From Mycobacteroides immunogenum (GTDB taxonomy: Bacteria > Actinomycetota > Actinomycetes > Mycobacteriales > Mycobacteriaceae), in contig NZ_CP011530.1 in the NCBI RefSeq assembly GCF_001605725.1, positions 1,302,001 to 1,366,000 of the forward strand: DNA of 64,000 nt. The letters are read 5' to 3'. This document shows, piece by piece, positions 5,294 to 8,217 of this stretch. Each line of letters begins with the position of its first letter. Positions within the stretch are counted from its first letter, which is position 1. Below the pieces are notes generated by a model. It saw only the letters and a program-made list of their open reading frames with translations. It ran no database searches and was not told where the DNA came from. Made by a program: the position numbers and the translations under genes.

Positions 5294-6550
5294 ATGATGC
5301 CTGGCATGGCCATGGAGACATCGGGAGCAACGGGGTTAGTAACGGTCGGCGAGATCCAGGAGGTGGCCGAGCGGCTGGCCCCTGTGATACGGCGCACACC
5401 GATGGTGGCCTTTCGTGCGCTGAGCGACCGGTGCGGGCACGAGGTACGGCTGAAGTGCGAAAACTTGCAGCGCACAGGATCTTTCAAACCACGCGGCGCG
5501 TACAACAGGATCAGCAGATTGCCCGAGGATCAGCGGGTCAATGGTGTGGTGGCGGCCAGTGCGGGTAACCACGCGCAGGGTGTGGCCTGGGCGGCGACCA
5601 CGCTCGGCATCCCGTCGACGGTGTTCATGCCGGTGGGGGCCGCACTGCCCAAGATCGTGGCCACCCGCTCGTACGGAGCGACCGTGCACTTGACCGGTTC
5701 CACCATCGATGAGGCACTGGTGGCCGCGACGGAGTTCGCGGCAGAAACCGGCGCGGTGCTCATTCACCCGTTCGACCACCACGACGTCGTGGCCGGGCAG
5801 GCCACCGTCGGGCTGGAGATCCTGGAGCAGCTGCCGGACGTAGGCACCATCGTGGTGCCCGCGGGCGGTGGCGGCCTCGTCGCCGGTATCGCCGCGGTGG
5901 TCAAGGCGGAGCGTCCGCAGGTGCGGATCGTCGCGGTGCAGGCCGCCGGTGCGGCCGCCTGGCCGGTGTCGCTCAAAGCCGGGCACCCGGTGGCATTGGA
6001 ATCCATGGAAACCATGGCCGACGGCATCGCCGTGGGTAAGCCAGGCGCGGTGCCGTTCGAGCATGTGGCCGCCCTGGTCGACGATGTGGTCACGGTCAGC
6101 GAAGAGGCGCTCTCGCGCGGTCTGCTGCTCTGCCTGGAGCGGGCCAAGTTGGTGGTAGAGCCCGCCGGTGCCGCGGCAGTGGCCGCGCTGCTCACCCTGT
6201 CCGCGGAAGAGCTGGGTCTGCGCGGCCCGGTGTGCGCGGTGCTTTCGGGTGGAAATATCGACCCGCTGCTGCTCACTCACGTCATCACCCATGGTCTGCG
6301 GGCTGCTGGGCGCTATCTGACGGTGCGGGTGACCGTCGCCGACGCCCCGGGCGGCCTCTCGGGTCTGCTGGATGTCTTCCGGTCCTCGGGCGCCAGCGTC
6401 GTCGACGTCACGCATTGGCGTAATAGCGAGCGGCTGCGTCTGGGCGAGGTGGACGTGCTGGCGACTGTCGAGACCCGGGGGCCAGAACACCGGCAGGCCG
6501 TCCTCGACGCGATCGTCGCGGCCGGCCTGACGGTTCACGAAGAGCGATAG
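5294..6550 (+). CDS. ilvA: threonine ammonia-lyase (threonine dehydratase)
   Basis: Deaminates threonine to 2-oxobutyrate, the first step of isoleucine synthesis. The 418-aa protein has a fold-type-II PLP domain with Lys65 in TGSFKPRGAYN, SAGNHAQGVA near 93-102 and a GGGGL phosphate-binding loop near 195. A C-terminal ACT-like domain (about 335-415) suggests regulation by isoleucine. Three in-frame ATGs (5294, 5297, 5306) make the exact start uncertain. It is divergent from the GPP34 gene with only 29 nt between them. This gene is not at this place in M. tuberculosis. Confidence 0.88.
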   Translation: MMPGMAMETSGATGLVTVGEIQEVAERLAPVIRRTPMVAFRALSDRCGHEVRLKCENLQRTGSFKPRGAYNRISRLPEDQRVNGVVAASAGNHAQGVAWAATTLGIPSTVFMPVGAALPKIVATRSYGATVHLTGSTIDEALVAATEFAAETGAVLIHPFDHHDVVAGQATVGLEILEQLPDVGTIVVPAGGGGLVAGIAAVVKAERPQVRIVAVQAAGAAAWPVSLKAGHPVALESMETMADGIAVGKPGAVPFEHVAALVDDVVTVSEEALSRGLLLCLERAKLVVEPAGAAAVAALLTLSAEELGLRGPVCAVLSGGNIDPLLLTHVITHGLRAAGRYLTVRVTVADAPGGLSGLLDVFRSSGASVVDVTHWRNSERLRLGEVDVLATVETRGPEHRQAVLDAIVAAGLTVHEER

Positions 6551-6567: not shown

Positions 6568-6634
6568 CCCACAACGAGTGCGAGCCTCACGCGGATTTCA
6601 GGTCAGATTTCCGCGTTAGGCTCGCACTCGATTG
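6568..6634. repeat. hairpin repeat, copy 1 (67 bp)
   Basis: The left member of a pair of direct repeats that are identical at 66 of 67 positions (partner at 7535-7601). Each copy is a large inverted repeat with 21-nt arms around a 14-nt loop. In this copy one base differs (T at 6617), which leaves a single mismatch in the stem. It lies between ilvA and the AbiEi/DUF559-type gene. Confidence 0.9.
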
Positions 6635-6676
6635 GAAGCAGGCGAGTTGTCGGTTGCCGGTGTGATGCTGCGAGCC

Positions 6677-7585
6677 ATGGGGGAGATTCCGTGGCCGTTC
6701 CGTGCGACCGAGATGCTGTCGACGGGCGCCGTGACCGAGCACTACATGCGCACCCGCTACCGGCAGCTGTACCCGGGCATTTACGTTCCGCGTGATGCGG
6801 AGGTGAGTGCCACGCAGCGCGCGTACTCGGCGTGGTTGTGGACTGAGCGCGGGGGCGTGATCGCCGGGGTGGCGGCCTCGGCCGTGCACGGTGCGAAATG
6901 GGTCGACGCTGGTGTCATCGTTGACCTTATCCATCGTCACCACAAGACCGCCACCGGCTTACGGGTCCATCGGGACACGTTGCTGGATAACGAGATTGAC
7001 CGTCTACATGGGCTTGCCGTCACCAGCCCCGCGCGTACCGCGTTCGACCTCGGCAGATGGCTACCGCAGGCCGTGGCCGTCGAGCGGATGGATGCCCTCA
7101 TGGCGGCGACCGGCCTGACGGCCGCGCAGGTTGAGGACGTCATGACGACGCACAAAGGGGTTCGGGGGCTGGCTCACCTGACGAGCGCGTTGGCGTTGGT
7201 TGACGCGGGTTCCGAGTCGCCGCAGGAGACCAAAACCCGGCTGCTCTTGGTGAAGTCGGGGTTTCCGCCGCCCCAGACACAGATAAGGGTGTTCAGTCGC
7301 TATGGCGATTTCATTGCCCGCATAGACATGGGGTGGGAGGACCTGAAGGTTGGTGTCGAATTCGATGGAGCTCAACACTGGTTGGACGCCCGTCAACGAT
7401 CGCGTGACATCGATCGGGCTTCGGAGTTGGCGGCGGAGGGCTGGGTAATCGTGCGGGTGAGTGCCGACATGCTTCGTCACCGGGCGGGCACCGTGGTCGC
7501 ACGTGTCGACGAGGCGCTCAGAAATGCCACTAAACCCACAACGAGTGCGAGCCTCACGCGGATTTCAGGTCAGATTTCCGCGTGA
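6677..7585 (+). CDS. AbiEi-like/DUF559-type protein, candidate endonuclease flanked by hairpin repeats
   Basis: A protein of about 302 aa seen often in actinobacteria. The N-terminus (FRATEMLSTG to YPGIYVPRD) resembles the winged-helix AbiEi antitoxin-type domain. The middle has the TSPARTAFDLGRW motif. The C-terminal third has the DUF559/Vsr-like PD-(D/E)XK core: an IDMGWEDLKVGVEFDG stretch, then a GWVIVRV strand. The gene lies between two 67-bp hairpin repeats, and its last 15 residues and stop codon are encoded within the second. Starts at 6632 (TTG), 6665 or 6677 are possible; 6677 best matches the family opening. No partner toxin gene is adjacent. Function is unknown; nuclease activity is inference. 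Confidence 0.7.
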   Translation: MGEIPWPFRATEMLSTGAVTEHYMRTRYRQLYPGIYVPRDAEVSATQRAYSAWLWTERGGVIAGVAASAVHGAKWVDAGVIVDLIHRHHKTATGLRVHRDTLLDNEIDRLHGLAVTSPARTAFDLGRWLPQAVAVERMDALMAATGLTAAQVEDVMTTHKGVRGLAHLTSALALVDAGSESPQETKTRLLLVKSGFPPPQTQIRVFSRYGDFIARIDMGWEDLKVGVEFDGAQHWLDARQRSRDIDRASELAAEGWVIVRVSADMLRHRAGTVVARVDEALRNATKPTTSASLTRISGQISA

Positions 7586-7601
7586 GGCTCGCACTCGATT
7601 G
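7535..7601. repeat. hairpin repeat, copy 2 (67 bp), overlapping the gene end
   Basis: The right partner of 6568-6634. The arms at 7542-7562 and 7577-7597 pair perfectly over 21 bp around a 14-nt loop. The first arm and loop encode the C-terminus of the DUF559-type protein, and the stop codon (7583-7585) lies in the second arm. It may also act as a terminator. Confidence 0.9.
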
Positions 7602-7618: not shown

Positions 7619-8113
7619 CTACTCGTGGTACGGCTCGGCGCTGACCAGCGTCACCTTCACCTCGGTGCCGTTGGGCACCGTGTAGCTGCGGGTCTCGCCG
7701 ACCTTGGCGTCGATCAGGGCACCACCGAGCGGTGAGCTGGGGGAGTAGACCTCAAGCTTGCCGTCCTTGACGCCTTCCTGGCGGGTGGCGATGAGGAAGG
7801 TCTCGGAGTCGTCCTTGTCGCCGTCGTAGTAGACCTTCACGACGGAACCGGGCAACGCGACGCCGGACTGAGTGGGGGCTTCGCCCACCTTGGCGTTGTT
7901 GAGCAGTTCCTGAAGCTGACGGATGCGTGCCTCCTGCTGGCCCTGCTCTTCGCGGGCGGCGTGATAACCGCCGTTCTCACGCAGGTCTCCCTCTTCGCGG
8001 CGCTCGTTGATCTCGGCGGCGATGACGGGGCGGTTGGCGATCAGCTGGTCGAGTTCCGCCTTGAGCCGATCATGTGATTCCTGGGTCAGCCAGGTCACCT
8101 GGGTGTCGGTCAT
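7619..8113 (-). CDS. greA: transcription elongation factor GreA
   Basis: Rescues backtracked RNA polymerase by stimulating transcript cleavage. The 164-aa protein has an N-terminal coiled coil (about 10-80, with [18 protein letters not shown] at its tip) and a C-terminal FKBP-like domain with [12 protein letters not shown]. Length equals that of M. tuberculosis Rv1080c. The start at 8113 is chosen over a longer reading because AAGGAG lies about 11 nt upstream and the opening [13 protein letters not shown] is conserved. Confidence 0.96.
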
Positions 8114-8217
8114 GGTGCAGGTACTCCTTGTCTCAGGCCAGCAACGTCCACTGGCGCTCATCTATCGGGTGCCGGGTTGGGTGCATTGCTGCGGGTAGCA
8201 CTGTCCAAAATGCAGCA

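Follow-up and report, generated by a model that had tools for sequence, protein, structure and literature searches.

A nuclease gene between matched palindromes in Mycobacteroides immunogenum looks like a small mobile element of an undescribed kind

Introduction

Repetitive extragenic palindromes (REPs), repeats of 20-40 bp (PMC3733652) that often carry a GTAG tag, are paired with REP-associated tyrosine transposases (RAYTs), flanking the transposase gene in inverted orientation and recurring elsewhere in the genome. Homing endonucleases of the EDxHD type, such as I-Bth0305I, have targets near 60 bp (PMC3943268), and free-standing homing genes occur as optional genes between conserved ones (PMC6083498). 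Paired inverted repeats are the binding sites of AbiEi and Rv2827c, antitoxins of type IV toxin-antitoxin systems (PMC7319586), and a 2008 survey described stem-loop families of M. tuberculosis and C. diphtheriae without an assigned role (Myt-1, Myt-8, and Cod-1 to Cod-3; PMC2267715). Analysis of 64,000 nucleotides of Mycobacteroides immunogenum (the window; positions 1,302,001-1,366,000 of a single-contig 5.57-Mb genome, NZ_CP011530.1) revealed a gene for a 306-aa nuclease-like protein enclosed by two copies of a 67-bp palindrome. Matched palindromes also flank many homologues of the gene, copies of them stand alone elsewhere, and the gene is present at the same site in some relatives and absent from it in others, so that the locus looks like a small mobile element of an undescribed kind.

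An earlier note on this DNA, made from the letters alone, had likened the locus to REP/RAYT pairs and suggested a mobile cassette or a self-marking defense element. The likeness stands in that a nuclease gene lies between gene-specific palindromes that recur at other places in the genome, together with matched pairs at 71 of 108 homologues and solo copies at gene-less sites; membership of the REP/RAYT family does not. The system works like REP/RAYT pairs and is no member of them on the descriptions given in PMC2817692 and PMC3733652: in place of an HUH/Y1 tyrosine transposase domain the protein has MTES_1575 and DUF559 matches in Pfam and Vsr/EDxHD and AbiEi parts in structure comparison, the repeats here are about 58 bp long, few per genome, and often marked by CGA near the outer end, and the two palindromes in the window are direct rather than inverted.

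The locus resembles EDxHD homing genes in a tied top structural match of its nuclease domain, in being optional between conserved genes, in a gene history that departs from that of the flanks, and in a palindrome length close to that of the homing targets. It differs in the AbiEi-like N-terminal part of the protein, in the position of the gene between two intact palindromes, the presumed target not being split, and in being chromosomal in the genomes read, whereas a review describes the EDxHD enzymes as phage-derived. With the AbiEi and Rv2827c antitoxins the protein shares the fold of residues ~3-180, but it is fused to a nuclease domain, its gene has two matched palindromes of which one is at the 3' end, and no toxin gene, AbiEii nucleotidyltransferase included, was found among the immediate neighbors, ilvA and greA.

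Structure of the locus and its protein

The gene and its palindromes are arranged as follows, in positions of the window.

6568..6634, + strand: left palindrome copy (67-bp repeat), core 6575-6630, ending 30 nt 5' of the start codon
6665..7585, + strand: gene for the 306-aa protein, with an AbiEi-like part at about residues 3-180 and a Vsr/EDxHD-type nuclease domain at about residues 184-290
7535..7601, + strand: right palindrome copy (67-bp repeat), core 7542-7597, overlapping the 3' end of the gene and its stop

The open reading frame (ORF) starts at ATG 6665 and stops at TGA 7583-7585, with an alternative TTG open 11 codons upstream. Sequence comparison confirmed that the two enclosing copies are identical at 66 of 67 positions, in direct orientation, and this pairing is far above chance. 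The hairpin of 21-bp arms and 14-nt loop that the earlier note had ascribed to each copy is perfect in the right copy (7542-7562 and 7577-7597), and the left copy has a single mismatch between its arms (6575-6595 and 6610-6630). Single-stranded folding of the copies gave z = -9.2 and -10.6, equaled by none of 200 shuffles. The right copy supplies the final 16 residues of the protein, one more than first counted, and its stop, and the TGA there is indeed TTA in the left copy.

The AbiEi/DUF559 label given to the gene was likewise upheld, as DUF559 (listed by Pfam as of unknown function) was above the Pfam cut-off over residues 211-285 and the AbiEi models of PADLOC matched residues 19-170. The MTES_1575 restriction endonuclease (REase) family of Pfam matched residues 211-285 with 34.9 bits, slightly under its cut-off of 38.2. 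Structure comparison resolved the protein model into an AbiEi-like part joined to a Vsr/EDxHD-type nuclease domain with the Vsr-like catalytic domain of EDxHD homing endonucleases; I-Bth0305I was the top structural match of this domain, tied with 3hrl, and MenT1 was also among the matches of the protein model. A sequence search for solved structures gave none at E <= 1, and an NCBIfam search with the nuclease protein gave no match. The gene is under purifying selection, with a ratio of nonsynonymous to synonymous substitutions (dN/dS) of 0.11-0.15 in ten pairs from five orthologues. DUF559 is mentioned in PMC12907096 and PMC11079077, and among the open-access papers listed none was found to link DUF559 or MTES_1575 genes to palindromes or to describe such a system, subscription journals being mostly outside this scope, so that this is no proof of absence.

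The AbiEi models derive from an anti-phage system library, and MTES_1575-type Vsr domains are reported from predicted conflict proteins (PMC3710099), as would suit a self-marking defense in which the palindromes would mark DNA as self and the nuclease would attack DNA lacking the mark. Such a role is very improbable, as the immediate neighbors are neither toxin nor methylase genes, no marking was seen in the data, and genomes hold several paralogues with different palindromes.

Matched palindromes at homologous genes

Relatives of the gene were present in all 60 of the genus genomes examined (2-18 matches each, partial ones counted), at seven places in the M. immunogenum genome including the gene itself, and in 35 of 40 genomes from other families of the order; the named orthologues L045-L048, from Mycobacteroides and Mycobacterium isolates, were 78-89% identical. 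A total of 172 loci were filed, of which 153 had an oriented homologue and 139 were full-length, and the 108 under 80% identity were kept, a sample of the best-scoring matches and no random draw. Strong hairpins were found within 200 nt before the start in 26 of the 108 loci and within 100 nt after residue 285 in 30, that is at either end in 46 and at both ends in 10; off the peaks there were 2 in the remaining 43 bins at the start and 7 in the remaining 34 bins at the end.

Left and right regions of one locus aligned with a score of at least 22 at 71 of the 108 loci, against 1.8 expected from between-locus pairing. This score was reached in 1.7% of 11,556 between-locus comparisons and by none of 108 flank control pairs, and for 49 of the 71 matched loci the own partner was the single best of all 108 right regions. 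Matched palindromes flank homologous genes widely, a point that the earlier note had set to be checked, and the contrary case that it had named, DUF559 genes of relatives lacking palindromes, holds only for the minority of 37 homologues without a matched pair at the score used. The palindromes had a median length of 58 bp, were specific in sequence to the locus or orthologue group, and in 61 of 88 instances had CGA close to the outer end. Direct and inverted scores were close over the family (medians 27.5 and 26) because the copies are palindromes.

Outside the genus, 27 of 30 returned loci were taken (the partial L341, L344, and L352 were omitted) and L351 was dropped for overlapping comparison windows, leaving 26. 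Direct matches of at least 22 occurred at 15 of these versus 2 of 26 controls, the control covering direct orientation only; another five reached the score only in inverted orientation, these without a matching control. At L336, L339, L340, and L355, from other families of the order, the flanking palindromes match inverted, nearer to the REP/RAYT layout.

The distance from palindrome end to estimated start codon had a median of 32.5 nt (38 cases), a promoter or 5' untranslated region position for the left copy that would suit autoregulation without mobility. The left palindrome would then be the operator of the AbiEi-like protein and the right one a terminator or insulator, dispersed copies would serve as terminators or form a small regulon, and gene conversion or binding constraint would keep left and right matched. 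This is consistent with the binding of AbiEi proteins to inverted repeats in their own promoters (PMC7319586), with the N-terminal part of the protein tracking the palindrome, and with solo copies that abut stop codons (L004, L007, and L110 lie within 3 nt of those of mechanically called ORFs). Autoregulation alone is nevertheless an unlikely account, leaving unexplained the conserved nuclease residues, the right copy, the gene-less sites with a cognate palindrome, and the conflict between gene and flanks. A plain terminator pair was rejected as a full account, since left and right copies agree within a locus and are different from one locus to the next.

Dispersed copies of the palindromes

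The window palindrome has 14 places in its genome, 12 of them away from the gene and none close to the gene's own paralogues, a dispersal of cognate palindromes shared with REP/RAYT systems. The solo copies that the earlier note had asked after therefore exist, and with these 12 sites and with gene-less relatives the opposite outcome that it had set out, a repeat confined to the locus and a gene never absent, did not occur. The 12 copies are diverged, with 79-86% identity to the locus copy, and a search of 100 relatives, a set that holds only one of nine close relatives, gave matches in the own genome and in G050.

Twenty gene-flanking palindromes from 15 genomes, hand-picked among strong pairs, were compared with all 15. 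Among the matches listed (to about E 1e-6, second-strand rows removed), the 20 cognate palindrome-genome cells held 48 extra copies and the 280 non-cognate cells held 32, the 32 including any next to other homologues and the 48 having been checked against the source gene only. With genome labels shuffled the mean was 5.4 and the maximum 37, so that 48 was never reached in 20,000 trials, and extra copies in the own genome were listed for at least 13 of the 20 palindrome types. This concentration shows that gene and repeat are paired within lineages; it does not show action in trans, and shared ancestry of the repeats within lineages contributes to it.

Site occupancy in related genomes

The insertion site is bounded by two genes outside the cassette.

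5294..6550, + strand: ilvA, left neighbor and insertion-site flank (TIGR01127 above cut-off)
7619..8161, - strand: greA ORF, convergent right neighbor and insertion-site flank (NF001262 above cut-off)

The ilvA-greA junctions of ten genomes were read, among the matches listed. Five carry palindrome, gene, and palindrome (the own genome, G230, G128, G282, and G349), and five lack the gene: in G132 the junction has a single cognate palindrome, in G187 a palindrome of another type, and in G337, G050, and G209 the convergent stops are separated by 10-11 bp without a palindrome. Cassette and solo palindrome alternate at this one site. Carriers and non-carriers are interleaved in the ten-genome ilvA + greA tree, for example G230 with the gene beside G209 without it (support 91), a tree with weak nodes (supports 37 and 55) that is compatible with gain as well as with loss of the gene. 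Between the empty G209 and its filled sister G230 no target-site duplication was seen by eye, and the insert has about 11 extra bases beyond each palindrome.

Three further cassettes of the own genome (L010, L011, and L012) were traced into the same nine relatives. Over the four cassette sites, 7 of 20 gene-less junctions hold a single cognate palindrome, with scores of 23, 23, 28, 34, 42, 47, and 56. For both junctions scoring 23 the best non-cognate scores were 13 and 14, and 60 comparisons to the other three palindrome types reached a maximum of 21, at the junction with a cognate score of 34. The remaining 13, sorted by eye, hold a remnant, a different palindrome, or nothing, and the junction of G337 at the L010 site gave no clear reading. 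The idea that gene-less strains keep one repeat was thus borne out in one of five relatives at ilvA-greA and at 7 of 20 junctions overall.

Solo sites of the own genome were read in part across relatives, L107, L174, and L177 being nearly or wholly unread. Site L176 is absent in all nine relatives, L173 is empty in seven of nine and has a different sequence in two, and four sisters show a cleanly empty site at L110, which is lacking in G187. Seven of eight aligned relatives have L004, two of them in degenerate form, and G187 does not, and at L007 (G000:C1:5104330) three of eight relatives have other palindromes. At this last junction (counterparts L221, L224-L226, L228, L229, L232, and L235) three different palindrome sequences are found among the species, and such junctions seem, therefore, to be repeatedly occupied.

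Sites occupied in the own genome and vacant in relatives (L176 and L173), different palindrome types at one junction, and the dispersal of cognate copies would all suit a REP/RAYT-like maintenance, with the protein mainly copying or moving its palindrome to new intergenic sites, the cassette as source, and the solo copies as non-autonomous offspring. As the main activity of the protein this is improbable: the solo copies of the own type are few (12) and diverged, indicating no recent burst, and the gene too comes and goes at sites with cognate solos. We also know of no strand-transfer activity of a lone Vsr-fold nuclease.

As a separate observation, segments of about 1.7 kb in G349 (L272, at own site L004) and about 1.6 kb in G282 (L273, at own site L107) lie at the position of the own solo palindrome and by eye contain MarR-like, DNA-glycosylase-like, and transporter-like ORFs. 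They were rejected as insertions of the nuclease gene at solo sites, as they coincide with no listed homologue place.

Gene history and homogenization of the copies

Topologies were compared over the five genomes with the gene between ilvA and greA. The flanks favor ((own,G282),G349,(G230,G128)), and on them the gene topology is rejected, with a log-likelihood difference (delta lnL) of 19.8 and p of 0.0035 in the approximately unbiased (AU) and 0.045 in the Shimodaira-Hasegawa (SH) test. The gene itself favors ((G230,G128),own,(G282,G349)), with a delta lnL of 13.0 for the flank topology, which is rejected by the AU (p 0.0022) and Kishino-Hasegawa (KH; 0.011) tests and not by SH (0.108). This conflict, in which AU rejects a shared history both ways and SH on the flank side only, indicates horizontal spread to the same site: the gene was probably transferred across species to this position, or else replaced there.

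At four orthologous loci the left copy has its own sequence, and in the own genome the left copy is of the right type over the 67 bp, including right-side flanking bases, the copy having been replaced in this lineage. In orthologue group D the two copies of a locus are more alike (87.5% identity) than left with left or right with right copies across species (79% each). In groups A, B, and C the right copies are more alike across species (94.2, 91.6, and 93.0%) than the two copies within a locus (86.1, 88.6, and 91.4%). Left-right homogenization, as judged from these identities, is clear in some cases and is not general.

Proposed mechanism and implications

The reading favored by a narrow balance of probability is a compact mobile cassette of palindrome, gene, and palindrome that would act as a palindrome-targeting, homing-like element. 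The AbiEi-like winged-helix part would bind the palindrome as a dimer, each subunit on one arm, and cleavage at the palindrome or close by would fall to the Vsr/EDxHD-type nuclease domain. Repair templated by a palindrome- or cassette-bearing copy would carry the cassette over to other strains that have a solo palindrome at that site, as in free-standing homing, and would also homogenize left and right copies, while recombination or annealing of the two direct repeats could delete the gene and leave a solo scar. The cassette keeps both palindromes, the presumed target, intact, which poses a problem of self-targeting for the homing reading; self-targeting would in turn explain homogenization and solo scars. 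The palindrome-spreading and plain operator roles considered above are not mutually exclusive with homing and could coexist with it.

A broader proposal, whose chances are put a little short of even, is that of an order-wide selfish palindrome-nuclease family in Actinobacteria, in which a free-standing homing-type nuclease would target a palindrome carried at both ends and dispersed, a non-HUH, convergent counterpart of REP/RAYT and a possible source of orphan mycobacterial stem-loop families. The Myt-1, Myt-8, and Cod-1 to Cod-3 families are likewise dispersed stem-loops by their description, the level at which they were compared, with no nuclease link in the available part of PMC2267715, and may be the same phenomenon. 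If these proposals are true, many genes of the family would be elements, selfish or domesticated, each with palindromes of its own; a layer of hairpins scattered over these genomes would be explained, specificity work would have a large natural stock of proteins paired with 58-bp palindromes, and RAYTs would be joined by a second, chemically independent gene-plus-palindrome partnership.

Other candidate origins and minor observations

An origin from an insertion sequence, prophage, or plasmid was rejected, with no phage DNA match and a single plasmid DNA match at the greA end only. A search for close homologues on plasmids and phages gave seven plasmid and two phage records, none of which reached 60% identity or 80% coverage. 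An RNA gene was also rejected, as the Rfam matches were below gathering scores and mostly to microRNA models, generic hairpins except for Ms_IGR-8. The latter, a listed mycobacterial small RNA (sRNA), matched window positions 7528-7590 weakly (28 bits, gathering score 44), and its consensus has the same layout as the window palindromes with a CGAGUGUGAAGC arm, so that the family may be a palindrome copy rather than an sRNA gene.

Two paralogues in the own genome, L013 (G000:C1:1827591-1828430) and L014 (G000:C1:1728378-1729013), are apparently decayed. One is interrupted by an in-frame TAG and lacks matched palindromes, and the other has lost its N-terminal part and is flanked on both sides by CGAGCGTGAAG-type palindromes, the type that stands alone at ilvA-greA in G187.
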